From positions 124,001-188,000 of the forward strand of contig NZ_RCZM01000003.1 of the NCBI RefSeq assembly GCF_006438965.1: a stretch of 64,000 bases of DNA, given 5' to 3'. The stretch's first letter is position 1; every line of letters begins with the position of its first letter. A program made the position numbers and the translations under genes. Shown here piece after piece: positions 520-63,784 of this stretch. The notes beneath the pieces are model-generated. The model was not told the origin of the DNA and did not search any database. It was given only the letters and a program-made list of their open reading frames with translations. Source of the DNA: Pedococcus bigeumensis. GTDB taxonomy: Bacteria; Actinomycetota; Actinomycetes; Actinomycetales; Dermatophilaceae.

Positions 520-626
520 GGCACCCACGGTAGTCGGAGGGGACTGCTCCCCATGGTCGCAACGCGGCATCCCGCCCTAGCGTTCGAGCGAACCGGCACC
601 GGCCGGCATACCGAGGGGGACTTCTC

Positions 627-1463
627 ATGGAACTGCTCAGCACCCGCAGGCGCAGGCTGGTGACCGCCGCCGCCACCGCCGCGTTCATCGCCGTGCCACT
701 CGTCACGGGGCTGGCGGCGAACGCCGCCACCGCGACCGGCGCCGTCAACACGACCGGCAACCCCGGCCCGGCCCTCACTGTGCGCGCCCACCCCACGTCG
801 CAGTCCGACGCGGTCGGCAAGCGCGCCGACGGCGCCACGATCACCATCGTCTGCCAGACCTACGGACAGCAGGTGACGGGCACCTACGGAACGACGAAGA
901 TCTGGGACAAGGTCAAGAGCGGCGGCTATGTCAGCGACGCCTTCATCAGGACCGGCTCCGACGGCCTGGTCGCGCCGCTGTGTGCGGGCAGCACGCCGCC
1001 GACCGAACCCAGCCAGAGCGCCAAGGTCAAGGCGACCATCGCAGCGGCCAGGGCCATGACCGGCAAGTACCCCTACTCGTGGGGTGGCGGCAACTACACC
1101 GGTCCCACCAAGGGAATCTGCTGCAGTCCCAGCGGGATCGACGACCGCAACACCGTCGGCTTCGACTGCTCGGGCCTGATGGAGTACGCCTTCTTCAAGG
1201 GCGCCGGCCTCAAGGTCTCCAGCACCTCACGCAGCCAGTACGCCGACGGACCGCGCGTCCCGATCGGCCAGCTCAAGGCCGGCGACATGGTGTTCTGGTC
1301 CAGCGCCAGCAAGACCGAGTCCGGCATCCACCACGTCGCGCTCTACATCGGCGACGGGCAGATCGTCGAGGCCGACCGGGTGAGCGGCCCGGACGTCCGC
1401 GTCCGCTCGTTCTCCACCGGCGAGTCCGGCGTCATGCCCTTCGCGGTCCGGCCGAACCGCTGA
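627..1463 (+). CDS. Secreted NlpC/P60 cell-wall hydrolase with SH3-like region
   Basis: This 278-residue protein has an Arg-rich start and a signal peptide to about residue 36 (ending near AANAATA). An SH3-like part follows (about 45-120, with RAHPTSQSDAVGKRADGATI), and the C-terminus is an NlpC/P60 cysteine peptidase domain. The catalytic Cys is in GFDCSGLMEYAF (Cys181), and the His is in SGIHHVALYIGDG (His235 or 236). Such enzymes cut peptidoglycan stem peptides, usually gamma-D-Glu-diaminopimelate bonds, in the cell wall. A GAGGGGGA ribosome-binding site lies about 8 bases before the ATG. The divergent gene to the left is a lipoprotein. The exact bond cut cannot be told from sequence. Confidence 0.88.
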   Translation: MELLSTRRRRLVTAAATAAFIAVPLVTGLAANAATATGAVNTTGNPGPALTVRAHPTSQSDAVGKRADGATITIVCQTYGQQVTGTYGTTKIWDKVKSGGYVSDAFIRTGSDGLVAPLCAGSTPPTEPSQSAKVKATIAAARAMTGKYPYSWGGGNYTGPTKGICCSPSGIDDRNTVGFDCSGLMEYAFFKGAGLKVSSTSRSQYADGPRVPIGQLKAGDMVFWSSASKTESGIHHVALYIGDGQIVEADRVSGPDVRVRSFSTGESGVMPFAVRPNR

Positions 1464-1485
1464 CCGTCCCGCACGCAGCGCACAC

Positions 1486-1522
1486 CGAGGTATGCCGGGT
1501 GGTCACCACCTGGCATACCTCG
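1486..1522. repeat. Intergenic inverted pair of the GTATGCCG motif (hairpin)
   Basis: Two 18-base arms, one at 1486-1503 (CGAGGTATGCCGGGTGGT) and its complement at 1505-1522, face each other with one G-U type mismatch and a single-base loop. The element lies between the end of the NlpC/P60 gene (1463) and the start of the glycerophosphodiesterase gene (1555), so it could end transcription of the former. No T-run follows. It belongs to the dispersed family described in the findings. Confidence 0.85.
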
Positions 1523-5112: not shown

Positions 5113-5149
5113 GGTATGCCGGGTGCGCGAGCCGGCCACGCGGCATACC
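5113..5149. repeat. Intergenic inverted pair of the GTATGCCG motif
   Basis: GGTATGCCGGGTG at 5113-5125 faces CACGCGGCATACC at 5137-5149, pairing 12 of 13 positions with an 11-base loop. It lies between the divergent starts of clpB (5017) and the nitroreductase-family gene (5158), not at a gene end. A pure terminator role is therefore unlikely here. Confidence 0.8.
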
Positions 5150-5157
5150 GTCAGGGC

Positions 5158-7355: not shown

Positions 7356-7365
7356 AGACAGGAGT

Positions 7366-7392
7366 ATGCCGCGTGGCCGGGCCACGCGGCAT
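7366..7392. terminator. Hairpin after hspR, built from the GTATGCCG motif
   Basis: Perfect 12-base arms ATGCCGCGTGGC and GCCACGCGGCAT with a 3-base loop lie 9 bases past the hspR stop and just before the next gene on the same strand. This is a good candidate for terminating the dnaK operon, although no T-run follows. The left arm is a member of the dispersed motif; the right arm has lost one base of it (GGCATG). Confidence 0.7.
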
Positions 7393-7863: not shown

Positions 7864-8871
7864 TCACCTCGTCGCGTTCTCGAACAGCTCCGCCCGGGGG
7901 TCGAAGCCCTCGTCCAGCGACTGCAGGGTCTCGACAGCGGCCTTCGCCTCGTCGGAGAGTCGTTGCGGCACCACGACGCTGACCCTGGCCATCAGGTCAC
8001 CGGGCTTGTCCTTGACCGGCACCCCGCGCCCCTTGAGGCGCAGTACGCGACCGCTCGGGGTTCCCGGTGCCACGCGCACCTTGACGGAGGACCCGTCGAG
8101 GGTCGGCACCGCGACGGTGGCCCCCAGGGTGGCCTCGGCGAAGGTCACCGGCAGGTCGATGGTGAGGTTGTTCCCATCGCGACCGAACACCGGGTGCTTC
8201 TCCACCGTGACGGTGAGGATGAGGTCACCGGGCGTGGCGCCGGCGTCGCCGCGCTGGCCCTTGCCGCGGAGCCGGATCTTCTGGCCGTCCTTGACGCCGG
8301 CGGGGATCCGCGTGGTGATCTGGTCACCCCCGTTGGTGCTGAGCGTGACGGTCGCACCCTCGACCGCGTCGCGGAACGACAGGGTCGTGCGAGCGGTCAG
8401 GTCGGCGCCCTTGCGCGGTCCCTGCGGCGCACGGAAGCCAGCGCCCCCGTATGCCGGGCCGCCCCCGCCGCCGAACATTCCGCCGAGCAGGTCCTCGAGG
8501 TCGGGCTGCCCACCGCCGCCGGTCGAGTACCGCACCCGGGCACCGCCGCCGCCGCCGCCGAACATCGAGGAGAAGACGTCGTCGAAGCCGCCGTTGCCGC
8601 CGCCGGGACCGCCCGCCGTGAAGCGGGCGCCGCCGTGCGCCATCTGCCGGACGGCGTCGTACTCGCGACGCTTCTCGGCATCGGACAGGACCGAGTTGGC
8701 CTCACCGATGTCCTTGAAGCGCTGCTCGGCTGCTGCGTCCCCTGCGTTCTGGTCGGGGTGGTGCTTGCGCGCGAGCTTGCGGTAGGCCTTCTTGATCGCC
8801 GCGCCGTCAGCATCCTTGGGGACGCCGAGGATCGCGTAGAAGTCCTTCTCGAACCAGTCCTGGCTAGCCAT
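7864..8871 (-). CDS. dnaJ: Co-chaperone DnaJ, type II (no zinc finger)
   Basis: This 335-residue J-protein stimulates DnaK ATPase. The J-domain (about 9-75) has the essential His-Pro-Asp in ARKHHPDQNAG. A long Gly/Phe region follows (about 80-150), then the two substrate-binding beta domains and the C-terminus (PAGVKDGQKIRLRGKGQRGD, DLPVTFAEATLGATVAVPTL). There is no cysteine at all, so the CxxCxGxG zinc domain of classical DnaJ is absent and the protein is of the CbpA/DnaJ2 type, although it sits in the dnaK operon. The gene lies between grpE and hspR. Confidence 0.94.
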   Translation of the reverse strand: MASQDWFEKDFYAILGVPKDADGAAIKKAYRKLARKHHPDQNAGDAAAEQRFKDIGEANSVLSDAEKRREYDAVRQMAHGGARFTAGGPGGGNGGFDDVFSSMFGGGGGGARVRYSTGGGGQPDLEDLLGGMFGGGGGPAYGGAGFRAPQGPRKGADLTARTTLSFRDAVEGATVTLSTNGGDQITTRIPAGVKDGQKIRLRGKGQRGDAGATPGDLILTVTVEKHPVFGRDGNNLTIDLPVTFAEATLGATVAVPTLDGSSVKVRVAPGTPSGRVLRLKGRGVPVKDKPGDLMARVSVVVPQRLSDEAKAAVETLQSLDEGFDPRAELFENATR

Positions 8872-9551: not shown

Positions 9552-11452
<1,901 letters not shown>

Positions 11453-11507: not shown

Positions 11508-11547
11508 TTAGGAGCCGGTATGCCGCGTGGCAAATCGGTGCGCGAAA

Positions 11548-14098: not shown

Positions 14099-14782
14099 TC
14101 AGCGCGTCGTGGTGACCGGCATCAGCCGGTAACCCATGCCGCGCACCGTCTCGACCGAGACCACCCCGAAGGCCGAGTCGATCTTCCGGCGCAGGTAGCC
14201 CACGTAGACCTCGACGATGTTCTCGCTGCCGTCGAACGCGGGGTCCCAGACGTTCTCGAGGATCTCGGCCTTCGAGAGCACCATCTCAGGGTGGCGCATC
14301 AGGTAGTGCAGCACGGCGAACTCCCGTGCCGTCAACGAGATCTGGTGACCTGCCCGGCATACCGTCCGCTTGTTGGGGTCCAGCTCCAGGTCGCCCACCG
14401 TCAGCGTGACCGGTCGCGCCGGTGCGCCGCGACGGACCAGCGCCCGCAGCCGGGCCACGAGGACCATGAAGCTGAACGGCTTGGTGAGGTAGTCGTCCGC
14501 CCCGAGCTCGAACGCGTCGGTCTGGTCGTACTCGCCGTCCTTGGCGGTCAGCATCAGTGTCGGCGCCCAGATCTTGAGGGCCCGCAGGTTGCGCAGCACG
14601 TCGTAGCCGTTGCGCCCGGGCAGCATGATGTCGAGCACGATGACGTCGTAGGGGTTCTCGGTCGCCATCCACTGGCCGGTGATGCCGTCGTGCGCCACGT
14701 CCACGACGAAGCCCTCGTTGGTCAGGCCACGGCGGACCGTCTCGGCGAGGGCCGCCTCGTCCTCAACGAGCAGGACGCGCAT
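14099..14782 (-). CDS. OmpR/PhoB-family response regulator
   Basis: The 227-residue regulator has a receiver domain with acidic pocket VEDE, phospho-acceptor Asp51 in VLDIMLPG and Lys101 in YLTKPFSF. A winged-helix DNA-binding domain follows (ISLTAREFAVLHYLMRHPEM, then VYVGYLRRKIDSAFGVVSVE and RGMGYRLMP). It resembles TcrA/CseB-like regulators that pair with HAMP kinases. Its stop is 58 bases from the kinase stop, convergent. Its start overlaps the stop of the PAP2 gene by 20 bases, so phosphatase and regulator form one transcript on the minus strand. Confidence 0.92.
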   Translation of the reverse strand: MRVLLVEDEAALAETVRRGLTNEGFVVDVAHDGITGQWMATENPYDVIVLDIMLPGRNGYDVLRNLRALKIWAPTLMLTAKDGEYDQTDAFELGADDYLTKPFSFMVLVARLRALVRRGAPARPVTLTVGDLELDPNKRTVCRAGHQISLTAREFAVLHYLMRHPEMVLSKAEILENVWDPAFDGSENIVEVYVGYLRRKIDSAFGVVSVETVRGMGYRLMPVTTTR

Positions 14783-29453: not shown

Positions 29454-29488
29454 GAGGTATGCCGGGTGGCGGCCACCCGGCATACCTC
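29454..29488. repeat. Perfect inverted pair of the GTATGCCG motif
   Basis: Two perfect 17-base arms, GAGGTATGCCGGGTGGC and its complement, are separated by one base. It fills the gap between the convergent ends of the YbaK-type gene (29449) and hutU (29504), so it can act as a terminator for both. It is the most regular member of the family. Confidence 0.92.
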
Positions 29489-31159: not shown

Positions 31160-31220
31160 GTCGTTCTCCTTCAGTGCCTTGGTCAGACGGTTCAGTGACG
31201 AGCGGGGTATGCCGGTGGGT

Positions 31221-32806: not shown

Positions 32807-32843
32807 GGTATGCCGCGATCGCGCCCTGCGAACGCGGCATACC
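32807..32843. repeat. Inverted pair of the GTATGCCG motif upstream of hutH
   Basis: GGTATGCCGCG at 32807-32817 faces CGCGGCATACC at 32833-32843, perfect over 11 bases with a 15-base loop. It lies between the hutH start codon and its operator, within what should be the 5-prime leader or promoter. It is therefore not simply a terminator. Confidence 0.85.
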
Positions 32844-44574: not shown

Positions 44575-44612
44575 GGGTATGCCGCGAGCGCACGTCCGCC
44601 CGCGGCATACCC
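44575..44612. repeat. Inverted pair of the GTATGCCG motif after rraA-like gene
   Basis: GGGTATGCCGCG at 44575-44586 pairs perfectly with CGCGGCATACCC at 44601-44612 around a 14-base loop. It lies 54 bases after the stop of the RraA-like gene, so it may end the tct operon. It also lies upstream of the IclR gene (44669). Confidence 0.85.
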
Positions 44613-49804: not shown

Positions 49805-52660
49805 ATGACCACCCTCATGGAACGAGAGGCACCAGCAGGTATGCCGCGTGGTTCCGACCGCGACGAGGACCAGAGCTCGCGACTGTCCCGGTGGCGCGCC
49901 TCGTGGCGGGTTGCCCTGCGGATGGCCAAGCGGGACGCCTGGCGCTACAAGGGACGCAGCGTCCTCGTGCTCATCATGGTGGCGCTGCCGGTCGGCGTCC
50001 TCGTGGGCACCCTGGTGTTCGCGACGAGCTCGTCGGTCAGCAGCGTGGAGCGCATCCCCACCTCCCTGGGCAGTGCACAGGCCCTCATCCAGGGGCCCTC
50101 GGAACAGGTGGTCTGGCAGACCGCAGACCCCAACGAGGGCTGGTCCACCGACTCGAACAGCCAGCCCGACAAGGCGACGCCGGTGCCCGGCTTCAACCCC
50201 GGTGAAAGCCTCGGGTCCGCAGCCAACGTCGCAGCGCTCCAGCAGGTCACCGGCGGCACGGTCGTGCCGGTCGGGGAGATGACCCTGCGGCGCGTCCTCG
50301 ACGAGAGGCGCACGCGCGGCATCCAGGTGGCGACCTTCGCGGCCGGCACGGTCGACCTCGGGACGAAGGCCACGCTGGTCTCCGGACGGTGGCCCGCCAC
50401 CGCGGGCGAGATCGCCGCAACGCCCTACGGCATCAGCCGGGGCATGCCGGACCACGGCACCACCACGCTCCGCTCAGCGGGCAAGAGCATCGACGTCACC
50501 GTCGTCGGCGTCGCCAACTTCTTCAACGGGTGGGGGGGACAGCCGGACGCCATCTCGGCGCGCCCTCTCGACCCAGAGGCGGTCCTCGACTGGCAGTACC
50601 TCCTCCTGCGCGACGCGGGGGTGCCGTACTCCGAGGTGAAGAAGCTCAACGCCTACGGGCTCCAGGTGACCAGCGCCGAGGCGCTGCGCAACCCGCCCTC
50701 CCCGGCCGCGCTGCCGCCGACGATGCGGCAGATGCAGGACTACGCGGCCCGGGACGTCCAGACCATGGTGGCCATCGGCGGCGTGTTGCTCCTCCTGGTC
50801 ACCACCCTGTTGGTCGCCCCGGCCTTTGCTGTCAGCGCCTCTCGTCAGCGGCGGACCCTGGCGCTCGCCGCCAGCAACGGCGCCGAGACCCGGCAGCTGC
50901 GGCGCAAGGTGCTGGCCCAGGCCCTGCTGCTCGGAGCCCTGTCGGCCATCGTCGCGGCCGGCCTCGCAGTCCTGGCTGTGCGCGTGGTGATGTGGGTGCT
51001 GGTCGCCCGGCGACCCTGGACCACGTTCCGCTTCTTCGAGGTACCCCTGTGGGCCGTCGCCGCGGTCATCGTGATGGCCGTCGTCAGCGCCCTTGTCGCG
51101 GCGCTCATCCCCGCCTTGCGACTGCGGCGGCTCGACATCGTCGGCGTGATGAAGGGCCAGAACGTCTCACCCCGGCTCAACCGGGTGGTGCCCGTCCTCG
51201 GAGTCCTCCTTGCCGGCACCGGCGGCGTCGGCCTGGTTGCCGCGGTGGCGACCAAGCAACGTGAGTACACGATCGCAGGGCTGGCCATCGCGCTCACCGT
51301 GGGCGCCCTCATGCTCGTCCCCCTCGTCCTGGTGGTGGCGGGCCGGCTGTCGGCCCGGCTGCCCGTCGCCGCGCGGATGGCCACCCGGGACGCCGCCCGT
51401 CACCGGGCGCGCTCCGTGCCGACGGTCGCCGCGATCATGGCCGGGGCTATCGCCCTCACGGCCTTCAGCATCGGGCTCGCGAGCGACACCGAGCAGTCCA
51501 TCCGCGACTACCAGCCCCAGCAGCCGGCCGGTCAGGGCGCGATCTTCGTCGCCAGCGACCTGTCCGTGCTGGCGCCGGGCGCAGTCGACCCGGCGCTGGA
51601 GGATGCCGAGGAGCTCGTCCGCGGCCTGACGCCCGACCTGGTCTCGACGAGGCTCGCGCAGGTGACGACGCCGTTCGACCCCAAGAACCCCAACGCCCCA
51701 GTGCCGTTCGTGACGGTCGTCAAGCCCGGCTGCACGGTCGACCGGGCCGTGACCGACGCCCAGTCCGACCAGCAGAGCGGACGCCCGGTGTGTCAGCTCC
51801 TCGGCACCAACGGGCAGCGCAGCATCGCTGTCCTCCCGGCCGCGGACATCACCCGCCTGCTACGCCTGTCCCCCTCGGACTCAGCGCGGGTCAGCAACGG
51901 AGGAATCGCCGTCAACGAGGCCGCCCTGATCTCGACGGCTGGCACGGTCGCGGTCGCCAGCGGGACGGTCACCACCAACCAGAACACCGGTCTGGTCGAG
52001 TCGCTGAAGGACACCCGTACTGCCGCCCTGCCTGCCGTGGTCGGCAAGCTCCCGATGGCCCAGGGCCAGTACGGCGGTGTGGTCACGCCCGAAACCGCCT
52101 CGAAGCTGGGCTGGTTCGTCGGCAGCTACTCCCTGCTGCTTCGCAACCCCGATGGCGCGATCAGCAAGGCCGACGAGAAGGCCCTGTCCGAGCAGCTCGG
52201 CGAGGACGGCGGGGTCTACGTCGAGCGAGGCTTCGTCCGCGACGACATCCTCATCATGCGGATCTTGTTCGTGGCCTTCGGGCTGCTCTTGCTCATCGTC
52301 ACACTGATCTCCACGGCGCTCGCTCTGGCGGAACAGCAGAGCGACATGGGCACCCTGGCGGCGGTCGGTGCCACCAAGGGCACGAGGCGCCGACTCGCCG
52401 CGGCGCAAGCTGCGACGGTGGCCTTCATCGGTGCCCTGGTCGGGATCGCGGTGGGGCTGGCCCCCGGCATCGCCGTCAGCTACCCCCTGACCGCGGACTC
52501 CTACGACCCGGAGACCGGTCGCCAGCTGGCCCCTGACCCGATCACCGTCATCCCGTGGTTGCCCCTCGGCCTTCTGCTGGTGGCCGTGCCCGTGATCGCT
52601 GCGCTGCTCTCCGCGGCAGCGATCCGGCGAGCTCCGGCGCTGACGCGGCGGGCCGACTGA
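49805..52660 (+). CDS. FtsX-domain ABC transporter permease
   Basis: A 951-residue permease with ten or so helices. It has an N-terminal helix (GRSVLVLIMVALPVGVLVG), an extracytoplasmic domain of about 230 residues, an FtsX unit of three helices (VAIGGVLLLLVTTLLVAPAF onward), then a helix pair, a second large extracytoplasmic domain and a second FtsX unit near the C-terminus (ILFVAFGLLLLIVTLISTAL, GALVGIAVGLAPGIAVS). Two FtsX units in one chain suit a single-gene permease used with the preceding ATPase. The cargo is unknown. A strong terminator follows. Confidence 0.92.
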   Translation: MTTLMEREAPAGMPRGSDRDEDQSSRLSRWRASWRVALRMAKRDAWRYKGRSVLVLIMVALPVGVLVGTLVFATSSSVSSVERIPTSLGSAQALIQGPSEQVVWQTADPNEGWSTDSNSQPDKATPVPGFNPGESLGSAANVAALQQVTGGTVVPVGEMTLRRVLDERRTRGIQVATFAAGTVDLGTKATLVSGRWPATAGEIAATPYGISRGMPDHGTTTLRSAGKSIDVTVVGVANFFNGWGGQPDAISARPLDPEAVLDWQYLLLRDAGVPYSEVKKLNAYGLQVTSAEALRNPPSPAALPPTMRQMQDYAARDVQTMVAIGGVLLLLVTTLLVAPAFAVSASRQRRTLALAASNGAETRQLRRKVLAQALLLGALSAIVAAGLAVLAVRVVMWVLVARRPWTTFRFFEVPLWAVAAVIVMAVVSALVAALIPALRLRRLDIVGVMKGQNVSPRLNRVVPVLGVLLAGTGGVGLVAAVATKQREYTIAGLAIALTVGALMLVPLVLVVAGRLSARLPVAARMATRDAARHRARSVPTVAAIMAGAIALTAFSIGLASDTEQSIRDYQPQQPAGQGAIFVASDLSVLAPGAVDPALEDAEELVRGLTPDLVSTRLAQVTTPFDPKNPNAPVPFVTVVKPGCTVDRAVTDAQSDQQSGRPVCQLLGTNGQRSIAVLPAADITRLLRLSPSDSARVSNGGIAVNEAALISTAGTVAVASGTVTTNQNTGLVESLKDTRTAALPAVVGKLPMAQGQYGGVVTPETASKLGWFVGSYSLLLRNPDGAISKADEKALSEQLGEDGGVYVERGFVRDDILIMRILFVAFGLLLLIVTLISTALALAEQQSDMGTLAAVGATKGTRRRLAAAQAATVAFIGALVGIAVGLAPGIAVSYPLTADSYDPETGRQLAPDPITVIPWLPLGLLLVAVPVIAALLSAAAIRRAPALTRRAD

Positions 52661-52804: not shown

Positions 52805-53401
52805 ATGAGCCAGACGCCAGACGAGCAGCAGACCGACCCGGCCGGCAACGGCGATCAGCAGCAGCGGGTCGTCGTCGTCACCCAGGACGGCATGGGCATC
52901 GCCCCGCACCGTGAGGGTGAGGACGGGCCCACCAACCCGGCCGACCTCGTGGAGCAGCCGGCCAAGGTGATGCGGATAGGGTCGATGATCAAGCAGCTCC
53001 TCGAAGAGGTCCGCAACGCCCCACTCGACGAAGCCGGGCGGGCCCGCCTCGCGGAGATCCACCGCCGCTCGATCAAGGAGCTCGAGGACGGCCTCGCCCC
53101 CGAGCTGATCGACGAGCTCGAGCGGATCGCGTTGCCCTTCAACGAGAACGTCCCACCCACCGACGCAGAGCTTCGGATCGCCCAGGCCCAGCTCGTGGGC
53201 TGGCTGGAAGGCCTGTTTCACGGCATACAGACCGCGCTCTTCGCCCAGCAGATGGCGGCGCAGCAGCAGCTCCAGCAGATCCGTCGCGCCCTGCCGCCCG
53301 GCCACGCCCCCGAGGGCGGACAGGGCATGGAGGGTATGCCGGGAGCTCCCGGCCTGCGCCCCGACACCGGTGAGGGCGGCCCCACCGGTCAGTACCTCTA
53401 G
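52805..53401 (+). CDS. bpa: Bacterial proteasome activator Bpa
   Basis: A 198-residue Bpa (DUF2587) protein from ATG 52805 (an ATG at 52796 is possible). The conserved core is DLVEQPAKVMRIGSMIKQLL, then ELEDGLAPELIDELERI and LRIAQAQLVGWLEGLFHGIQ. The last residues Gly-Gln-Tyr-Leu form the tail that opens the 20S proteasome gate. Bpa forms a ring that feeds unfolded proteins, including HspR in mycobacteria, to the proteasome without ATP. HspR is encoded 45 kb away in this window. Confidence 0.95.
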   Translation: MSQTPDEQQTDPAGNGDQQQRVVVVTQDGMGIAPHREGEDGPTNPADLVEQPAKVMRIGSMIKQLLEEVRNAPLDEAGRARLAEIHRRSIKELEDGLAPELIDELERIALPFNENVPPTDAELRIAQAQLVGWLEGLFHGIQTALFAQQMAAQQQLQQIRRALPPGHAPEGGQGMEGMPGAPGLRPDTGEGGPTGQYL

Positions 53402-54785: not shown

Positions 54786-56441
54786 ATGACCGACTCGGTG
54801 CAGCAGCTGGCGGACGACTTCCACGACTACCGCATGCGGACCTCGCCCACCTGGGCGCACATGCTCGGCGACTACCGGTTCGCCGACCAGTACGAAGACG
54901 GGTCGAGGGCAGCGGAGGATGCCGAGATCGCTGCCCTGCGTGAGTTTGCCGCCCGCGCCGAAGCCATCCCTGACGAAGGCCTGGGCGGGCCCGACCGGGT
55001 GACCCGCGACATCGTGGCCTTCGACGCGACCACGTCCGCCGACGTCGGCGAGGCGCACTCGTCCGAGTTCGGTGTAGACCCGGTGTTCGGAGTGCAGGTC
55101 GCCCTCGGCGTCGCCATCGCCGGCCTGTCGCTGCCGACGGCCGAGGTCGCCGACGCGATGGTGCCCAAGTACCGCGGCATCGCGCAGAGCATCCGCGACT
55201 TCGCCGAGCGGCACCGCGAGGGAGTGGCGGCAGGACGCACCCCCGCGACCTTCGCGGTGGAGCGCGCGATCGAGCAGATCGAGCGATGGCTGGCCACCCC
55301 CCTCGCCGAGGACATGCTGCTCACCTCCACGACCGAACCACCCGCCGGCTACGACGTCGAGGCGTGGCGCGGCCGGCTCTCGGACGTCATCGCGACCGAC
55401 GTCCGGCCCGCCCTCGAGGTGTTCCGCGACGTGCTGCGCGACGAGGTTGCGCCGGTCATGCGACCGGACGAGCAGTGCGGTCTGTCCTGGCTCCCCGACG
55501 GCGGGCAGACCTATGCCCGCCTCCTTGCCCGCGACACCACCACGACCCTGTCGGCCGACGAGATCCACCAGATCGGCCTGGACCAGATCGCGTCCCTGGC
55601 AGAGGAGTACCGCACCCTCGCGCCCGCAGTGGTCGGCACCGACGACCTCCCGTCCATCTACCGCGCGCTGCGCGAGGACCCCGCGCTCCGGCACTCGAGC
55701 ACCCCCGACATCGTCGCTGCGTGCGAGGCGGCGTTCGCCAAGGCCCGGGGCGTGATGCCCGAGTGGTTCGACCGCCTCCCCGTGGCCGACTGCGTGGTGA
55801 AGTCCACCGACGTGGGCGCTGCTGCCTACTACTACCCGCCGGCCGACGACGGCAGCCGCGGCGGCACGTTCTACATCAACACCGCTGACCCGGCGCACTG
55901 GGGCCGCTACGAGCTCGAGGCGCTTTCCTACCACGAGGGCATCCCGGGCCATCACCTCCAGCTGGCGATCGCCGGCGAGCTGACCGACGTGCCGAAGTAC
56001 CGCAAGTTCACGATCTTCAACGCCTACGCCGAGGGCTGGGGGCTCTACACCGAACGCCTCGCCGACGAGATGGGCCTCTACACCAGTCCCCTCGAACGCC
56101 TCGGCATGCTGACGATGGACTCCATGCGCGCGTGCCGCCTCGTCGTCGACACCGGGCTGCACGCGATGGGCTGGAGTCGGCAGCAGGCCGTCGACTACAT
56201 GGTCGCCAACTGCCCGCTCAGCGTGGGTGGTGTCAAGGCCGAGATCGACAGGTATGCCGTGCACCCGGGTCAGGCGTGCGGCTACATGATCGGGCGCCTG
56301 GAGATCCTGCGGATCCGTCGCGAGGCGCAGGAACGCCAGGGCGAGCGGTTCGACATCAAGGCGTTCCACAACGCGGTGCTCGACGGTGGCAGCGTCCCGC
56401 TGGCCGTGCTCGACACCGTGGTCCGCACCCGCCTCCCCTGA
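54786..56441 (+). CDS. DUF885 putative metallopeptidase
   Basis: A 551-residue protein of the DUF885 family. The start is ATG 54786; an upstream in-frame start overlaps the divergent MFS gene. The core motif is YHEGIPGHHLQ, with His383, Glu384 and His389 or 390, similar to zinc-peptidase sites; RYELEALSYHEG and NAYAEGWGLYTERLADEMG are also characteristic. Members are thought to be peptidases, but activity is not well established. No signal peptide is visible, so it is probably cytoplasmic. Confidence 0.85.
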   Translation: MTDSVQQLADDFHDYRMRTSPTWAHMLGDYRFADQYEDGSRAAEDAEIAALREFAARAEAIPDEGLGGPDRVTRDIVAFDATTSADVGEAHSSEFGVDPVFGVQVALGVAIAGLSLPTAEVADAMVPKYRGIAQSIRDFAERHREGVAAGRTPATFAVERAIEQIERWLATPLAEDMLLTSTTEPPAGYDVEAWRGRLSDVIATDVRPALEVFRDVLRDEVAPVMRPDEQCGLSWLPDGGQTYARLLARDTTTTLSADEIHQIGLDQIASLAEEYRTLAPAVVGTDDLPSIYRALREDPALRHSSTPDIVAACEAAFAKARGVMPEWFDRLPVADCVVKSTDVGAAAYYYPPADDGSRGGTFYINTADPAHWGRYELEALSYHEGIPGHHLQLAIAGELTDVPKYRKFTIFNAYAEGWGLYTERLADEMGLYTSPLERLGMLTMDSMRACRLVVDTGLHAMGWSRQQAVDYMVANCPLSVGGVKAEIDRYAVHPGQACGYMIGRLEILRIRREAQERQGERFDIKAFHNAVLDGGSVPLAVLDTVVRTRLP

Positions 56442-56528: not shown

Positions 56529-56572
56529 CTTGGCGGGGGTCGGGGGTATGCCGGGTGGTCGCCTCGGGTGGG

Positions 56573-58228
56573 TCAGCTGACGGCCGCTGCCGCTGCGCGT
56601 CCCGCGGTGCGGCCGGAGAAGATGCAGCCGCCGAGGAAGGTGCCCTCGAGCGCGCGGTAGCCGTGCACCCCACCGCCGCCGAACCCGGCGACCTCGCCCG
56701 CGGCATACAGGCCGGGCACCGGCTCACCGGACGCGGTCAGGACGCGCGACGAGAGGTCCGTCTCGAGACCACCGAGGGTCTTGCGGGTGAGGATGTTGAG
56801 GCGCACCGCGATGAGCGGGCCGGCCTTGGGGTCGAGGATCCGGTGCGGGGTGGCGGTGCGAATCAGCTTGTCACCACGGTAGTTCCGCGCGCCGTGGATC
56901 GCCGTCACCTGGGCGTCCTTGCTGAAGTCGTTGTCGATCTGCCGGTCGCGGTCGACGATCTGGCGCTCGATGTGGGCCAGCTTCAGCGGCGCATCGGGGG
57001 TCAGCGCGTTCATCTTGGCAACCAGCTCGCCGAGCGTGTCGGCGAAGACGAAATCGGCGCCCTTGTCGAGGAACGCCCGGACCGGTGCGGGCATGTCCGC
57101 TCGCGCTCTCCCGAGCACGTCCTTGACCGACTTGCCGGTCAGGTCCGGGTTCTGCTCCGACCCGGACAGCGCGAACTCCTTGCCGATGATCTTCTTGGTG
57201 AGGATGAACCAGCTGTGGTCGTGCCCGGTCTGGCGCAGGTGCGACAGGGTGCCTAGGGTGTCGAAGCCGGGGAACAGTGGCGCAGGAAGCCGGTCGCCGT
57301 TGCCGTCGAACCACAGCGAGCTCGGCCCGGGCAGGATGCGGATCGCGTGGGACGGCCAGATCGGGTCCCAGTTCTCGATGCCCTCGACGTAGTGCCACAT
57401 CCGGTCGCGGTTGACGAGACGACCACCGGCGGCCTCGGTGATCGCGAGCATGCGACCGTCGACGTGGGCCGGCACTCCCGTGAGCATGTGGTCGGGCGCC
57501 GTGCCCAGCCGCGAGGGCCAGTTGGCCCGGACGAGGTCGTGGTTGGCCCCGATGCCACCACTGGTGACGACGACTGCTTGCGCGGTCAGCTCGAACTCGC
57601 CTGCGCTGTCTCGGTTCGTGGGTCGCCCGCGGTCGGCGCCGTCGGGGGCGAGCAGGGTCCCGCGCACGCCCGTGACCGTGCCGCCAGAGGTGACCAGCTC
57701 GTCGACCTGGTGGCGGTGCCGGATCTCCACCCGACCGGACGCAACGTGCTCCGCCACCCGTCGCAGGAAGGGTGCCAACACCCCGGGACCGGTCCCCCAG
57801 ACGATGTGGAACCGCGGCACCGAGTTGCCGTGCCCGGACGCGGAGCCGTCACCGCGCTCGGCCCAGCCCACGACCGGGAAGAACCGCATGCCCTGCCCGT
57901 GCAGCCAGGACCGTTTCTCCCCCGACGCGAAGTCGACGTAGGCGCGCGCCCACTGGGCCCCCCACTTGTCCTCGTCCTCGAGCCGGTCGAACCCCGCGGA
58001 GCCCTGCCAGTCCTGCCACGCGAGGTCGACGCCGTCCTTGATCCCCATCCGCCGTTGCTCGGGGCTGTCGACGAGGAACAGTCCGCCGAACGACCAGTGG
58101 GCCTGCCCACCGAGGTTGGCCGCACTCTCCTGGTCGACGACCAGGACGCGTCGTCCCGCGTCGGCGATCTCGGCAGCAGCGACGAGTCCGGACAGCCCGG
58201 CTCCGACCACGATGACGTCAGCGTCCAT
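56573..58228 (-). CDS. FAD-dependent dehydrogenase (fumarate reductase/KstD-like)
   Basis: A 551-residue flavoprotein with the Rossmann start DVIVVGAGLSGLVAAAEIAD and the second FAD motif VVVTSGGIGANHDLVR. The C-terminus has PVPGLYAAGEVAGFGGGGVH and LEGTFLGGCIFSGRTAGRAA. The overall form is that of the FAD-binding dehydrogenase group related to fumarate reductase and 3-ketosteroid 1-dehydrogenase, but no steroid genes are nearby. The substrate is unknown. It is monocistronic, 9 bases from the downstream end of the HAD gene. Confidence 0.87.
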   Translation of the reverse strand: MDADVIVVGAGLSGLVAAAEIADAGRRVLVVDQESAANLGGQAHWSFGGLFLVDSPEQRRMGIKDGVDLAWQDWQGSAGFDRLEDEDKWGAQWARAYVDFASGEKRSWLHGQGMRFFPVVGWAERGDGSASGHGNSVPRFHIVWGTGPGVLAPFLRRVAEHVASGRVEIRHRHQVDELVTSGGTVTGVRGTLLAPDGADRGRPTNRDSAGEFELTAQAVVVTSGGIGANHDLVRANWPSRLGTAPDHMLTGVPAHVDGRMLAITEAAGGRLVNRDRMWHYVEGIENWDPIWPSHAIRILPGPSSLWFDGNGDRLPAPLFPGFDTLGTLSHLRQTGHDHSWFILTKKIIGKEFALSGSEQNPDLTGKSVKDVLGRARADMPAPVRAFLDKGADFVFADTLGELVAKMNALTPDAPLKLAHIERQIVDRDRQIDNDFSKDAQVTAIHGARNYRGDKLIRTATPHRILDPKAGPLIAVRLNILTRKTLGGLETDLSSRVLTASGEPVPGLYAAGEVAGFGGGGVHGYRALEGTFLGGCIFSGRTAGRAAAAAVS

Positions 58229-58237: not shown

Positions 58238-58918
58238 CTACGGGCCGGTAATCGCCGCCGTCACGTGAACGCGGCCAGCCACCACGGAGAACCGCACGTC
58301 CGCCAGCGTCGCCACGACAGCGTCGGCCACGAGGTCTGACTCGGCAGTCGTCGTCGTGACCGCGAGGGTGGTGCACCCGGCAGCGCGGGCCGCGTCGAGA
58401 CCACCGGGCGCGTCCTCCACCACCAGGCAGTCGGCCGGGTCGACCCCGAGCCGCGTGGCCGCGAGCAGGAACGGGTCGGGGTGGGGTTTGCCCTGGGCAA
58501 CGTCGCTCGCGGTGACGACCACCCCTGGAGCAGGGAGCCGTGTCGCGGCCAGTCGCGTGTCAGCCAGCGGACGCGTGCACGAGGTGGCGATCGCGCACAG
58601 CTCCACCTGGCCGGTCAGGGCAGCCAGCGCGTCGAGGGCGCCCGGCAGCACCGTGATGCCGTCGGTGTCAGCGATCTCGATGGCTTCGATCCGGTCGAAG
58701 GCGGCGTCCAACCGCTCGGGGGGCAGCAGCGTTGCGATGATGCCCTTTGCGGGCACGCCGTGGAAGCCGGTCAGCCGCCTCGGGTCGACCCCCTCTTCCT
58801 GCGCCCACCGCACCCAGGACCGGATGACGACGGGGATCGAGTCGATCAGCGTGCCGTCCATGTCGAACAGCACCGCCGCGAAGGTGCGGCCTTCGAGCGT
58901 CCCCAGGCTGCGCGGCAT
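58238..58918 (-). CDS. HAD-family sugar-phosphatase-like hydrolase
   Basis: A 226-residue HAD phosphatase with motif I AVLFDMDGTLIDS, motif II ATSCTRP, the conserved Lys in VAQGKPHPDPFLLAA and motif IV LVVEDAPGGLDAARAAG. A four-helix cap (about 25-95) matches sugar phosphatases such as YfbT or DOG. The ATG start lies inside a copy of the GGTATGCCGCG motif (58912-58922 region), so the motif overlaps the initiation site. The exact substrate is not known. Confidence 0.9.
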   Translation of the reverse strand: MPRSLGTLEGRTFAAVLFDMDGTLIDSIPVVIRSWVRWAQEEGVDPRRLTGFHGVPAKGIIATLLPPERLDAAFDRIEAIEIADTDGITVLPGALDALAALTGQVELCAIATSCTRPLADTRLAATRLPAPGVVVTASDVAQGKPHPDPFLLAATRLGVDPADCLVVEDAPGGLDAARAAGCTTLAVTTTTAESDLVADAVVATLADVRFSVVAGRVHVTAAITGP

Positions 58919-58941
58919 ACCGCAACCCTAGGAGGTCGCGA

Positions 58942-60639
58942 GTGGCGAAGCGGCGGTGGTCCAGCAGCGGAGCCGGTTACGGTGGAGAGGTGAGCACGCC
59001 GCCCGATAGCCCACACCGGTGGCGTCGTGCGTCCCGGTGGCTGCTGCGGATCGGTGCGCTCGTCCTCCTCTTCGTCGCCTGCAACAGCGGTGGTGTCGCC
59101 GCGACCACGCTGTTCCCGAGCAGCGCCGACACGCTCAACTACGGTGCCGACCTGCACTTGTCGCTGAGTCCGGGTGACACGTCGGCGATCCAGAGCCCGA
59201 CCATCTTCGGCGACATCCGGATGGACTTCGGTGGTGTGGTCCCGGCTCCTGGCGTGGTGGCCAACGTGCACGTCAAGGAACGCATCACCGACCTGCTCGC
59301 CCGGCCCAACATCTCCGTGCGGTCGCTCCAGCCGGGCCCGCTCGAGCTCGAACGTGCCGCCCGCGGTGGAGCCATCGCGCTGGGGTGGCGGTTCGCCGTG
59401 GGCGCCCTCGTCGTCGCCCTCCTCGCCCTCGGCGGGTATGCCGCGTGGCGGCGGCGGGCGCCCCGGGTGCGGTGGTCAGCGGTGGTCGCCTCCGTCTGGG
59501 TCGCGTCGTGCCTGGCGACCTTCGGCGTGATCGGGGTGACCTACCAGCCGGAGCGGCTCGACAGCTTCACGACGACCGGGATCCTCGGCACGGTCCAGCG
59601 CAACGCCGATCTCCTGGAGGGCGTCGAGACCCGGGCCGAGCAGGTCACGCCCTACCTCAAGAACCTGCTGGCCCTCTCCGCTGCGCTGCAGGGCAAGTAC
59701 GCCCCCCAGGCGCTCGACCAGCCCGTGGCCGCGCGGCTGCTCCTGGTGTCGGACATCCACGGCGGGAACCAGTACCCCCTGATGAAGACGATCGTCACCC
59801 AGGAACGGATCGATGCGGTCATCGACTCGGGCGACCTGGTCAACTTCGGCAGCGCCACCGAGGCGGAGGCGGCCGGCATCTTCGAGGGCATCGCCTCCCT
59901 CGGGGTCCCGTACCTGTTCGTCAAGGGCAACCACGACGGCCGGACCGACGTCGACCGTGAGCTGCTGGACCGGCTGGCCAAGGTGCGCAACGTCGTGCTG
60001 CTCGAGCCCGACGCCCAGACCTACGCGGTCGAGAGCATCCACGGGGTGCGGATCGCCGGCTTCAACGACCCGCGGTGGTTCGGCGACGACAACACCAACA
60101 ACGCGGCCAAGCAGAAGCCGGCGGCGGCCCGGTTCAACGCTGCGATGGCCGACCAGCCGGTCCCGGACATCGTCGTCTCCCACGAGCCAGCTGCCGCGAA
60201 AGACGTTGCCCGGGCGGGAATCCGGATCAACGGCCACATGCACGTGAGCCAGCTCGAGGGTTCGCGGATCGGTGTCGGCACCTTTACCGGGGGCGGGCCC
60301 TTCAGCCACTTCATCGCCGGCGACACCGCAGACGGTGGCAGTGGGAACAAGGCCGATGCCGGGGAGCTCACCGGCCAACCCTCGGCGTTCGACATCGCGA
60401 CGTTCGGCACCGACTGTCGGCTGGCGTCACTCACCCGCTACCAGTTCCGCAACGTCATCGAGGGGCGCCCAGCCTACGACGACGTGACCCTCATCAACGG
60501 GTCCCGGATCGAGGACAAGGCACCCGACCCGGCGCCGCCTGCCAGCGAGGCCGACGCCACGAGCACCGCGACGCCGACCCGGACCTGTGCGACCACGATG
60601 GAGCAGACCCGGGAACGCGTGACCGTCGCCCCACGTTGA
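58942..60639 (+). CDS. Membrane-bound metallophosphoesterase
   Basis: A 565-residue protein from GTG 58942, chosen because AGGAGGT sits 5 bases upstream; GTG 58990 is less likely. Membrane helices occur at about 33-55 and two near 150-200 (WRFAVGALVVALLALGGYAA; VVASVWVASCLATFGVIGV). The C-terminal calcineurin-like domain has LLLVSDIHGGNQY, DAVIDSGDLVNFG, YLFVKGNHDG, VVSHEP and RINGHMHVSQ with all metal ligands. It likely hydrolyses an extracytoplasmic phosphoester. The tail is Ala/Thr-rich. Confidence 0.88.
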   Translation: MAKRRWSSSGAGYGGEVSTPPDSPHRWRRASRWLLRIGALVLLFVACNSGGVAATTLFPSSADTLNYGADLHLSLSPGDTSAIQSPTIFGDIRMDFGGVVPAPGVVANVHVKERITDLLARPNISVRSLQPGPLELERAARGGAIALGWRFAVGALVVALLALGGYAAWRRRAPRVRWSAVVASVWVASCLATFGVIGVTYQPERLDSFTTTGILGTVQRNADLLEGVETRAEQVTPYLKNLLALSAALQGKYAPQALDQPVAARLLLVSDIHGGNQYPLMKTIVTQERIDAVIDSGDLVNFGSATEAEAAGIFEGIASLGVPYLFVKGNHDGRTDVDRELLDRLAKVRNVVLLEPDAQTYAVESIHGVRIAGFNDPRWFGDDNTNNAAKQKPAAARFNAAMADQPVPDIVVSHEPAAAKDVARAGIRINGHMHVSQLEGSRIGVGTFTGGGPFSHFIAGDTADGGSGNKADAGELTGQPSAFDIATFGTDCRLASLTRYQFRNVIEGRPAYDDVTLINGSRIEDKAPDPAPPASEADATSTATPTRTCATTMEQTRERVTVAPR

Positions 60640-60674: not shown

Positions 60675-61286
60675 GTGACCGGGACCGAGTTCGACCGACA
60701 GCTCCAGACCTACCTCGACGCCAAGTACCCGACCCTCGCGGGCATCGACGAGAGCGAGTTCGTCGAACTCGTCGAACCGTTGCGGGACAAGGCCTCCGAC
60801 GCCACGGCCACGAGCGATGGCCGGATCCCGTTCGCCCTCGTCGTCACGTCCCGGCTGGTCAGTCCGGACCAGGTGCTGCCGACCGTCCACTGGAAGGCCA
60901 CCACCGGCTGGACCGAGTACACCGCCGACGACCTGGCCGGCTACCACCCGATCGGAGGTGTGGACGTCCCGGACCACGCGGCATACCTCGCCACCGACGT
61001 CGACACCGGGAAGGCGACCCTCGACGTGCGAGCCAAGGACGCCGTGCCACTCATCGAGGGAGAGGGGCGTACGGCGCTCACGATCGACGAAGGCGTCAGC
61101 CTCCTCGCGCTGTGGCCGGGAATCCTCAAGGACCGCAACGCCTTCTTCCTTCCGGGCTCGAGGGATGCGAGCAAGCGCGTGGCCGCCCTGTGGGTCAGCA
61201 AGGGGCACCCGCGGCTGGGCTGGTGCTGGGAGGGCAACCCGCACACCTGGCTGGGATCGGCGTCGTGCGGCGGCAGGGTCGCCTGA
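60675..61286 (+). CDS. DUF5701 family protein
   Basis: A 203-residue protein from GTG 60675 with AGAGGAG upstream. The conserved C-terminal part includes TALTIDEGVSLLALWPGILK, FFLPGSRDASKRVAALWVS and LGWCWEGNPHTWLGSASCGG. These match the DUF5701 family, which has no assigned function. No signal or membrane segment is seen. It follows the phosphoesterase gene by 35 bases and may be cotranscribed. Confidence 0.75.
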   Translation: MTGTEFDRQLQTYLDAKYPTLAGIDESEFVELVEPLRDKASDATATSDGRIPFALVVTSRLVSPDQVLPTVHWKATTGWTEYTADDLAGYHPIGGVDVPDHAAYLATDVDTGKATLDVRAKDAVPLIEGEGRTALTIDEGVSLLALWPGILKDRNAFFLPGSRDASKRVAALWVSKGHPRLGWCWEGNPHTWLGSASCGGRVA

Positions 61287-62220: not shown

Positions 62221-63458
62221 GCAGGGACGACGACGCCGGAGCGCAGGAGAGTGCGGGTGAGCTCCAGGCCGAGCTCGGCCGCTGTCGCGGTGCCCCTGTC
62301 CAACAGCCCTTCGATCGCCGCCAGATCGGTGCGTTCGACGGCGGTCGTGCCGACCCGGCTGCGCAGCACGGTGCGACCACCTGCGGCCGGCAGCAACACG
62401 GCAGCGACATGGGCACGAAGGGCAACCCTCGACGTCTCGGTGAGGGCGTTCGCCGCCTCGGCCTGGGCCAGTGGCGCCAGTGGCGCGGGGCGTTGAGCGG
62501 CTTGGGCCGAACCCGCCAGCCCGGCGAGGAGGTCACCCGCATCGACCTGCTGCAGCGCCTCGAGCAGCGCTGCCCGTACCGCCTCGACGTCGTGGGGGGC
62601 CGGCCCCTCCCCCAGCAGGTCGGTGCCGAGCGGTAGGGCCAGGCGCATCTCTGGTGACCGGCTGGCCCGGGTCAGGGCGGTCTTCACGAGCTCGTCCGCG
62701 ACCTGGCGGCGGGTCCACGGGTGGACCCCGATGGTCAGGTGGATGCTCGTGCCGCCCAAGGCCGTGGCCGAGTGCAGGTATCCGCGCGGTAGGTAGAGGC
62801 AGTCACCGGGGGCAAATGTCTCCTCGATCAGTGGCTCGTTCTGCGCGGCCTCCTCGACGGCGCCTCGCCGGGCGGTCCATGGCTCGTCGCGCAGCGGCAG
62901 CTCGTGCACGGGTGGGCGGATCCGCCACCGCTTCTCGCCCGCGATCTGCAGTACGAAGACGTCGTGGACGTCGTAGTGGTCGCTGAAACCGGTGTTCTCC
63001 GGCGGGGTGACGTAGGCGTTGACCTGCACCGGGTGGCCGAGCTCGCCGGCCAGCGTCTGGGAGAAGTCGATGATCGGGCGCCAGGTCCGGTGCAGCCCCT
63101 GCAGCACCAAGGTCGCGCCCTCGGAGAAGTGGTGCAGCACCGCGTCGTCGCTGACCTGGTCACCGATCGCTGCGCCGATCCCCCCACCACGGGTGAAGGT
63201 GCGGTCCTCCAGCGTCGTGCCGTCGCGCGCCATCCGCAGGAACGGCGTCCGCAACCCACGACCCGAGACGAGCTCGTCGACCCCGTCGGCGGAGAAGAGG
63301 TCGCCGAAACCCGCCGGCAGGTCGGCAGCCCGGCTGAGCAGGGGTTCGCGCGACCAGTACCGCTCGGCGAAGTCGGTCGGCGTGACCGCCACGAGGCGCG
63401 ACAGCACCGAGTGCCCACCGCTGCCGGTGGGCACTCGGTGCGGTGACGTGGTCGTCAC
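62217..63458 (-). CDS. JmjC/cupin ribosomal-oxygenase-like 2-oxoglutarate hydroxylase
   Basis: A 413-residue JmjC protein from GTG 63458. Iron ligands are His161 and Asp163 (GFSDHYDVHDVFVLQIAGEK) and His229 (YLPRGYLHSATALGG). A Lys follows the HxD site at residue 176 as candidate 2-oxoglutarate contact. The N-terminal part (FAERYWSREPLLSRAADLP) is typical of YcfD/ROX-like hydroxylases, which modify Arg or His of proteins. Helical winged C-terminal regions are present. It follows a small repeat peptide gene by 29 bases and overlaps the ferredoxin-like gene, suggesting a peptide- or protein-modifying unit. Confidence 0.88.
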   Translation of the reverse strand: MTTTSPHRVPTGSGGHSVLSRLVAVTPTDFAERYWSREPLLSRAADLPAGFGDLFSADGVDELVSGRGLRTPFLRMARDGTTLEDRTFTRGGGIGAAIGDQVSDDAVLHHFSEGATLVLQGLHRTWRPIIDFSQTLAGELGHPVQVNAYVTPPENTGFSDHYDVHDVFVLQIAGEKRWRIRPPVHELPLRDEPWTARRGAVEEAAQNEPLIEETFAPGDCLYLPRGYLHSATALGGTSIHLTIGVHPWTRRQVADELVKTALTRASRSPEMRLALPLGTDLLGEGPAPHDVEAVRAALLEALQQVDAGDLLAGLAGSAQAAQRPAPLAPLAQAEAANALTETSRVALRAHVAAVLLPAAGGRTVLRSRVGTTAVERTDLAAIEGLLDRGTATAAELGLELTRTLLRSGVVVPA

Positions 63459-63487
63459 CCGGTCACCGGGTCGCTGCTCGGCGACCG

Positions 63488-63784
63488 CTACGCCTGGCCG
63501 TCGGCGCCACCGTCCGCGCCACCATCAGCGCCGCCGTCGTGACCTCCGGTGTTCGCGCCGCCATCCGCCGGCCCGTCACCCGCGCCACCGTCAGCGCCGC
63601 CATCGGCACCACCGTCGTGTCCGCCTGCGTTGGCGCCACCGTCAGCCGGACCCTCACCTGCGCCACCGTCGGCGCCGCCATCGGCACCCCCGTCGGTGCT
63701 GCCCGGCATACCTGCCGCCCCGCCGTCAGCTGGTCCCTGGCCGCCTTCGTCGTCGCTTGCTTCGTTCAGGGGGGTTTCGGTCAT
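63488..63784 (-). CDS. Gly/Ala/Asp-rich repeat peptide, candidate JmjC substrate
   Basis: A 98-residue frame starting at ATG 63784, with AGGGAG 8 bases upstream. The first 20-30 residues are acidic and non-repetitive (MTETPLNEASDDEGGQ). Residues 31-56 and 57-82 are two copies of a 26-residue unit differing at two positions, and 83-98 a partial copy. Each unit has Asp-Gly-Gly-Ala steps plus one Asn-x-Gly-Gly-His-Asp site. There is no Cys, aromatic, Lys or Arg, and no signal peptide. The frame is followed directly by the JmjC and ferredoxin-like genes. The peptide may be the substrate of the oxygenase; no known family was recognised. Confidence 0.7.
   Translation of the reverse strand: MTETPLNEASDDEGGQGPADGGAAGMPGSTDGGADGGADGGAGEGPADGGANAGGHDGGADGGADGGAGDGPADGGANTGGHDGGADGGADGGADGQA
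63491..63694. repeat. 78-base tandem repeat in the repeat-peptide gene
   Basis: Two complete 78-base units (63617-63694 and 63539-63616) and a partial third (63491-63538) encode the 26-residue peptide repeats. Protein copies 1 and 2 agree at 24 of 26 positions, while third-position bases differ more, so the repetition is kept at protein level. Confidence 0.85.

Follow-up and report, generated by a model that had tools for sequence, protein, structure and literature searches.

A candidate DNA uptake sequence with lineage dialects in Pedococcus bigeumensis and related actinobacteria

Two families of Gram-negative bacteria are known to have uptake sequences. That of the Pasteurellaceae, the uptake signal sequence (USS), combines a core of 9 letters with more weakly specified flanks, and its density is similar to that of the word described here. 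The DNA uptake sequence (DUS) of the Neisseriaceae occurs in thousands of copies, forms inverted pairs and has dialects (accessible part of PMC3630211). The highly iterated palindrome HIP1 of cyanobacteria has orphan methyltransferases as a clue to its function (accessible part of PMC4390886), and Micrococcus luteus, with two tad clusters and comEA/comEC, is transformed in a manner that depends on a Flp/Tad pilus (accessible part of PMC4322843). In the open-licence literature, as covered by the titles and the starts of abstracts of the matches listed and with subscription journals outside, we found no uptake sequence described for Actinomycetota; uptake-sequence terms do not occur in two M. 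luteus papers, one of them PMC4322843. Here we describe an eight-letter word, GTATGCCG, that recurs in a 64-kb stretch of Pedococcus bigeumensis DNA (hereafter the window; contig NZ_RCZM01000003.1, positions 124,001 to 188,000), and follow it through the source genome and its relatives. As judged from sequence, GTATGCCG is quite probably the DNA uptake sequence of a naturally transformable lineage.

From the Pasteurellaceae USS this word differs in its letters and its phylum, and its flank is a short 3′ G-rich extension. Like the Neisseriaceae DUS, it is short and present in thousands of copies, some of them inside genes and some forming inverted pairs (which in Neisseriaceae are linked to terminators), with dialects that follow phylogeny, a constant core and one genome holding two dialects (accessible part of PMC3630211). 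Unlike the DUS, whose reader is ComP, it is an unrelated word of GC-rich actinobacterial hosts, for which a role in uptake is predicted; the three pilus-type ATPases of the source genome lie in Tad-like loci, and one dialect, GTACGCCG, lacks inverted pairs. It shares great abundance with HIP1, from which it differs in being asymmetric and in having dialects, and it shares with M. luteus the phylum and the tad and comEA/comEC genes.

The window (71.2% GC) contains 50 copies of GTATGCCG, 23 on the plus strand and 27 on the minus strand, where an order-2 Markov model expects 1.1 over both strands. A preliminary description had counted by hand about 51 GTATGCC(G) cores, about 23 and 28 by strand, against a rough expectation of 2–3; our recount gave 23 and 28 for the 7-mer GTATGCC, with a Markov expectation of 2.6. 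The pattern GGTATGCCG occurs 19 times on the plus and 15 times on the minus strand. The extended form GGTATGCCGCGTGGC, reported at 11516, 45586, 49838 and 59434, is exact at 11517, 45585 and 59435 (plus strand), so that these positions are shifted, while the copy at 49838 is not exact, having GGT in place of the final GGC; a further exact copy lies at 5135-5149 (minus strand). The excess holds for the whole source genome, a 4,223,823-base draft of 13 contigs, which has 2,551 copies of GTATGCCG (1264 and 1287 by strand) versus 74 of the reversed word (35 and 39), and 712 and 719 of GGTATGCCG versus 0 and 5 of the same pattern read backwards. Among the matches listed for the GGTATGCCG string in the open-licence literature, the titles concern unrelated topics.

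For a detailed sample of the source genome, we combined 32 stretches of 20 kb with the window (704 kb, 440 copies of GTATGCCG). The copies were spread rather evenly over the 32 stretches (mean 12.2 per stretch, variance 16.6), three of which were poor in the word (1, 2 and 5 copies), one of these being low in GC. One stretch (L034, positions 420001-440000 of contig C7), with 63.9% GC, a single GTATGCCG and a predicted protein of 1,856 residues, looks acquired. Alignment of 439 sites revealed preferred flanking letters, G at −1 (58%), C at +8 (52%), G at +9 (73%) and G at +12 (59%), such that the fuller form of the word is about G-GTATGCCG-C-G-N-g-G. The flank signal is weak out to about +16, beyond which the flanks are unrelated. 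The core is sharp: words differing from it by one letter are near or below expectation, save GGGATGCCG (32 versus 16.5 expected) and a few rare words. Such sharpness would also suit a HIP1-like word whose abundance is kept by a methyltransferase or repair enzyme, as proposed for HIP1, unlinked to DNA uptake; HIP1 is likewise abundant and tied to methyltransferases (accessible part of PMC4390886). However, GTATGCCG is asymmetric and so no palindrome, lineages differ in one letter of it with GCCG constant, and its absence coincides with that of a Tad locus in six genera (see below); on these grounds we regard this explanation as unlikely.

To place the copies relative to genes, we used a simple gene caller of our own based on codon usage, which predicted 651 genes in the 704 kb. 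Genes contained 308 of the copies and intergenic DNA 124, with 8 lying on edges, the density between genes being 2.7 times that in coding sequence; 32 of the 50 window copies are in genes. Codon choice at potential sites of the word was strongly altered. Tyrosine in the context G-TAY-GCC-G was encoded by TAT in 152 of 180 cases (84%), as compared with 247 of 3740 (6.6%) elsewhere; alanine before TAC and after CG was encoded by GCA in 95 of 162 cases versus 7.2% elsewhere, and isoleucine in CGGC-ATH-C by ATA in 34 of 106 versus 0.5%. An earlier version of the test, with slightly different genes and contexts, gave an agreeing result. The context-specific excess of TAT, GCA and ATA indicates conversion of synonymous positions to the word, on either strand and in several reading frames. 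Thus, the excess of GTATGCCG is a nucleotide-level signal and not codon bias. These codon tests contradict an origin in codon or composition bias, and the flanks, unrelated beyond about +16 among copies found across the window and the 32 stretches, argue against the debris of one mobile element; we found nothing in favour of either origin and consider both hardly credible. Tyr-Ala is the commonest reading of the copies in genes (150 of 308); of the peptides that had been named for such copies, Ala-Tyr (90) and Gly-Ile (35) come next, and Met-Pro is a minority (15).

The layout first noticed in the window, single copies in genes and inverted pairs between them, recurs in the sample. Among neighbouring copies of GTATGCCG 9–40 bp apart in the source genome, convergent pairs were enriched (19 of 148 convergent neighbours, versus 4 of 147 divergent and 2 of 112 tandem), and 12 other loci of the family, 10 of them from named organisms or metagenome-assembled genomes (MAGs), gave 5 of 52, 1 of 48 and 0 of 56, respectively. 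The genes on either side of the 23 convergent pairs no more than 60 bp apart were tandem in 15 cases, convergent in 3 and divergent in 2; the other 3 pairs lay inside genes. All six hairpins proposed for the window fold (z −3.1 to −7.0) and are intergenic by our gene caller, although the second arm of the one at 7364 is imperfect; the GGCATAC arm at 1512-1518 is the sole one of the 51 7-mer copies without a following G. A seventh inverted pair (25709/25726), which our gene caller places in a gene, folds more weakly. Hairpins between genes and a rather even spread would be expected also of a binding site for a protein that organises or segregates the chromosome or terminates transcription and needs very many sites. 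Against this, the word occupies 152 of 180 tyrosine opportunities within genes, beyond the need of termination, and it varies among relatives. It also shows no polarity with GC skew, our proxy for replication polarity in this 13-contig draft: over 33 stretches, forward and reverse copies numbered 95 and 100 at positive skew and 117 and 128 at negative skew (Spearman P 0.34). A strand bias along the replichores, as in Chi sites or the KOPS (FtsK orienting polar sequences) of a translocase, was thus not seen with this proxy, and a chromosomal protein of this kind seems to us very unlikely as the cause.

The relatives of P. bigeumensis use one-letter dialects of the word, GGATGCCG or GTACGCCG, and show the corresponding codon signatures. 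We found the dialects from the k-mers of 56 stretches, mostly of word-poor relatives, and counted them by strand in whole genomes (G numbers below denote genomes, g numbers genera and L numbers loci). GGATGCCG reached 1977/1972 in G026 (control 140/149), 1966/1850 in G016 and 2258/2222 in G103 (control 130/132), exceeded 980 per strand in G044, G064, G079 and G118, and numbered about 110–675 per strand in the remaining genomes. GTACGCCG reached 1942/1961 in G040 (control 155/155) and 2125/2060 in G102 (control 118/89), about 550–1310 per strand in G023, G024, G048, G054, G069, G077, G081 and G107, and smaller rises in G019, G105, G124 and G131. Over the three firm dialects the constant core is G-[TG]-A-[TC]-GCCG, with GCCG always kept. 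In contexts of their own word, the GGATGCCG set used GAT in 49 of 73 cases and GCA in 30 of 36, versus about 5% elsewhere, and the GTACGCCG set used GTA in 18 of 35 and 17 of 89, versus about 2.5%, with TAT in 0 of 52. Another candidate, GGACGCCG (29 copies in 40 kb of G010, 5.6 expected), is not firm as a further dialect. In G125 (genus g35; L045 and L105) the word CGTAGAGC occurs 16 times in 40 kb with 1.0 expected; the genome as a whole has only 6 copies of GGTATGCCG, unlike the sampled genus mates. In L053 (the first 20,000 bases of contig C1 of G023), a repeat word containing CAGTTCGACGG occurs 27 times in 20 kb, possibly as a CRISPR array.

Change from one dialect to another is visible at several levels. 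Genus g26 is split internally, G096 having 1,602 copies of GGTATGCCG and G069 having 5 of GGTATGCCG and 1,463 of GTACGCCG, and two species of the source genus, G124 and G131, hold both GTATGCCG and GTACGCCG. A comparison of 36 site columns in the dnaK region of 11 genomes revealed one site in dnaK with GTATGCCG in ten genomes and GTACGCCG in G124, and another column with GTATGCCG in five genomes and GTACGCCG in G131; in most other columns few genomes, or a single one, have the word. The dialect labels cluster on a DnaK tree of 21 genomes, where they need 6 changes, while shuffled labels need 9.3 on average and as few in 1 of 200 shuffles.

GTACGCCG extends beyond the family. In eleven outside loci (229 kb) of the order Propionibacteriales, GTA filled GTACGCCG contexts in 21 of 57 and 11 of 30 cases, versus about 2.5%, and control contexts were flat. 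The Pseudonocardiales loci lacked this codon signature, and Streptomyces is not counted among the users of GTACGCCG because in its loci GTA was no higher in GTACGCCG contexts than in control contexts. Through ten of the eleven loci we reached whole genomes of Propionibacteriales. Two Kribbella genomes had 3827/3743 and 2283/2210 copies of GTACGCCG by strand (controls 152–172), Actinopolymorpha rutila 1971/1857, a Marmoricola MAG 1263/1273 and a Nocardioidaceae MAG 773/797, and five Nocardioides genomes, one of them a MAG, had 1138–1792 on the forward strand. GTACGCCG in these ten genomes was about 8 to 23 times the control, versus about 1.3 to 6 times in 16 other genomes from outside the family.

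In a sample of 297 genomes of the order, GTATGCCG itself is abundant only in the family of the source genome, which its named members place as GTDB Dermatophilaceae. That family contributed 24 genomes; the other 273, belonging to 19 families, had at most 94 copies per strand, near controls. Within a family sample of 149 genomes from 53 genera, source genome included, about 88 had a strand-balanced excess of GGTATGCCG by eye, the rest being near background. Named relatives were drawn from the best 80 of 541 ComEC matches; among those listed, GTATGCCG was above expectation in loci of Knoellia remsis, Intrasporangium oryzae, Humibacillus xanthopallidus, Phycicoccus elongatus, Terrabacter sp. Root85, three Ornithinimicrobium and Arsenicicoccus bolidensis, and had zero copies in loci of Intrasporangium flavum, Dermacoccus abyssi and an uncultured Phycicoccus. 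Neighbouring genera thus carry GTATGCCG or a dialect of it. From the counts of GGTATGCCG, GGATGCCG and GTACGCCG we assigned, by eye, 45 of the 149 genomes to a class without the word. Eleven of these, of genera g37 and g38, have a word of their own, CGAAGGGGG (50 and 47 by strand in 176 kb; 66 copies in genes and 30 between), with some close inverted pairs (L046, L097-L103, L219 and L280), which is possibly an unrelated uptake word. Genus g2, also in this class, gave a weak GGATGCCG codon signal (7 of 25 and 2 of 8).

Competence genes are present in the source genome, with comEC downstream of a ComEA-like SLBB-HhH gene. comEC was matched in 145 of the 149 family genomes, and the four in which it was missed are drafts of 330–760 contigs. 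Three T2SSE-family ATPases of the source genome were above the cut-off, each in what looks like a Tad-type locus: L201 has Flp pilins and, by eye, a gene resembling comF; L202 has tadA, two T2SSF genes, two TadE genes and, by eye, a short Flp-like protein and a TadG-like gene; and L203 is Tad-like by eye. The tadA gene of the L202 type was unmatched in 17 of 149 genomes, namely 14 of the 45 without the word and 3 of the 104 others, and it was wholly missing from 6 of the 12 genera without the word and from 0 of the 41 others, these genera being related by descent. When G092, discussed below, is counted as lacking the gene, the ratios are 14 of 45 and 4 of 104 (Fisher test, P 1.2e-5, ignoring descent), and when g37 and g38 are moved to the word side the locus test still stands (13 of 34 versus 4 of 115, again ignoring descent). 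The L203 tadA was unmatched in 7 of 149, its weak matches perhaps being paralogues.

Inserts of 4–79 kb interrupt the L202-type tadA at about codons 205–235, with both halves on a single contig, in 7 of the 149 genomes; the inserts of G137, G131 and G028 (20 of 35 kb) were read in part and the other four whole. In five of the seven, a long serine recombinase is found no more than 3.3 kb from the break (three by Pfam, two by eye); no such gene was called next to it in G028, for the part read, or in G135. Insertions in competence genes are known elsewhere, and the likeness supports, without proving, a role of the L202-type locus in transformation. The parts read of the inserts in four GTATGCCG-type hosts contain 8 copies in 66 kb versus about 41 at the density of the source genome, host densities being different. 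This apparent scarcity would speak against a tag for conjugative or cell-to-cell DNA translocation, of the kind of the sites of TraB-like motors, which in principle would likewise mark the DNA of kin with no replichore polarity, and we consider such a tag highly improbable. In G069 (L258) and G026 (L259), tadC is followed by genes other than the expected flp and tadE, possibly marking a second insertion point in this Tad locus. Phage TJE1 has 2 copies of GTATGCCG versus 0.9 expected, a chance level, in a host whose own word may differ.

The first proposal for the window, a genome-wide marker for DNA uptake, thus gains support from the excess, the lack of polarity, the dialects and the com genes. 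We favour an uptake sequence because, besides these, the word is spread over silent sites, forms pairs at gene ends and seems scarce in some acquired-looking DNA. Binding by a protein, preference in uptake, the identity of the reader and spread by transformation are what we infer from this. The word on free DNA would be bound by a competence surface protein, probably a pilin or pseudopilin from a pilus of the Tad type that feeds ComEA and ComEC; uptake would then favour DNA from the same lineage, which would be recombined. Copies born by mutation would travel with the DNA taken up, and over time synonymous sites in several frames would come to carry the word, as would the ends of genes, with inverted pairs there also making hairpins. 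Drift in the specificity of the reader would lead to the genome being re-written to a new dialect. More tentatively, and with somewhat less than even confidence, we suggest a code spanning two orders, in which an ancestral GTACGCCG, found in Nocardioides, Kribbella and several genera of the family, was altered by one or two letters to GTATGCCG and GGATGCCG and is read by a TadE-like pseudopilin of the Tad pilus, with serine-recombinase elements that split its ATPase gene and perhaps switch transformation off. The second TadE protein of the locus (TadE2) has the residues PCLTR in five of the seven GTACGCCG genomes judged (G019, G024, G040, G081 and G102; not G107 and G124) and in 0 of 19 genomes with GTATGCCG or GGATGCCG. 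This pattern is explicable by kinship alone, G040, G102 and G081 grouping on the DnaK tree; TadE2 was missing or misread in G023 (once read as CLSR), G026, G069, G077, G118 and partly G126.

Several observations weigh against an uptake sequence. One-letter-off cores show no excess, GGGATGCCG excepted. Close inverted pairs are lacking for GTACGCCG, both in family members (0 of 33 convergent neighbours) and in Propionibacteriales (1 of 28), and show no excess for GGATGCCG (2 of 36 convergent, versus 3 of 36 divergent and 5 of 56 tandem). The codon signatures are imperfectly exclusive: GAT fills GGATGCCG contexts of the source genome in 26 of 128 cases versus 7.2%, TAT reaches 7 of 21 versus 3.6% in the GGATGCCG set (two of whose four genomes also hold GTATGCCG), the genomes without the word give weak signals (GTA 5 of 60 versus 0.8%; GCA 4 of 21 versus 3.5%), and a CGT test for GTACGCCG was negative (1 of 16 versus 10%). 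On a DnaK plus ClpB tree of 13 genomes the dialects need 5 changes, no fewer than shuffled labels. As to the machinery, comEC is near-universal in the family and so does not separate word-rich genomes from those without the word, and the L202-type tadA, present in 31 of the 45 genomes without the word, is not sufficient. It is also unmatched in three word-bearing genomes, G047 (100% complete), G085 (68%) and G087 (73%), and in the word-bearing G092 its match is as weak as those of paralogues. Of the candidate readers, the Flp_Fap pilin is rejected because it does not track the word, and ComEA, which together with ComP-like proteins had first been suggested as a binder, showed to the eye no residues linked to dialect among 31 sequences.

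If GTATGCCG and its dialects are uptake sequences, they would represent a further, independent uptake system, in many genera of GC-rich actinobacteria, and would allow tests of how uptake codes arise, spread and change. They would predict naturally transformable actinobacteria, and placing the host's word on donor DNA would be a practical way into genera that are hard to engineer. The dialects would also give a comparative route to the receptor. The copies and pairs in the window, and the split tadA loci, are collected in Table 1.

Table 1. Positions of GTATGCCG and its inverted pairs in the window, and loci with split tadA
Feature	Position or locus	Strand, arms or genome	Fold (kcal/mol; z)
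Inverted pair (hairpin)	1490..1518	GTATGCCG + at 1490, GGCATAC at 1512-1518	-27.7; z -6.8
Inverted pair (hairpin)	5114..5148	+ at 5114, - at 5141	-27.1; z -3.1
Hairpin	7364..7392	+ copy at 7364, imperfect second arm	-29.5; z -4.6
Inverted pair in a gene	25709..25733	+ at 25709, - at 25726	z -2.0
Inverted pair (hairpin), convergent genes either side	29457..29485	+ at 29457, - at 29478	-33.9; z -7.0
Inverted pair (hairpin)	32808..32842	+ at 32808, - at 32835	z -5.8
Inverted pair (hairpin)	44577..44610	+ at 44577, - at 44603	z -5.5
GTATGCCG copy	604..611	-	
GTATGCCG copy	8449..8456	+	
GTATGCCG copy in dnaK	9694..9701	-	
GTATGCCG copy (extended form from 11517)	11518..11525	+	
GTATGCCG copy	13012..13019	-	
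GTATGCCG copy	14355..14362	-	
GTATGCCG copy	15464..15471	-	
GTATGCCG copy	16530..16537	+	
GTATGCCG copy	17779..17786	-	
GTATGCCG copy	18592..18599	-	
GTATGCCG copy	20871..20878	-	
GTATGCCG copy	21387..21394	+	
GTATGCCG copy	23853..23860	-	
GTATGCCG copy	27171..27178	-	
GTATGCCG copy	27306..27313	-	
GTATGCCG copy	27779..27786	+	
GTATGCCG copy	28061..28068	-	
GTATGCCG copy	31207..31214	+	
GTATGCCG copy	34133..34140	-	
GTATGCCG copy	35441..35448	-	
GTATGCCG copy	36264..36271	+	
GTATGCCG copy	38432..38439	-	
GTATGCCG copy	39637..39644	+	
GTATGCCG copy	43250..43257	+	
GTATGCCG copy (extended form from 45585)	45586..45593	+	
GTATGCCG copy	46539..46546	+	
GTATGCCG copy	46646..46653	-	
GTATGCCG copy	48978..48985	-	
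GTATGCCG copy	49839..49846	+	
GTATGCCG copy	53221..53228	-	
GTATGCCG copy	53334..53341	+	
GTATGCCG copy	56252..56259	+	
GTATGCCG copy	56546..56553	+	
GTATGCCG copy	56701..56708	-	
GTATGCCG copy	58913..58920	-	
GTATGCCG copy (extended form from 59435)	59436..59443	+	
GTATGCCG copy	60979..60986	-	
GTATGCCG copy	63704..63711	-	
Split tadA inserts	L245, L247, L248, L243, L241-L242, L244, L246	G007, G122, G146, G131, G137, G028, G135	

The window also contains clpB and dnaK together (2444-11452), the usual heat-shock neighbourhood, and hutU adjoining hutH (29504-32789). A thiamine pyrophosphate (TPP) riboswitch (RF00059, 67.4 bits) is located at 24586-24688 on the minus strand, the same strand as the genes at 21288-24495.

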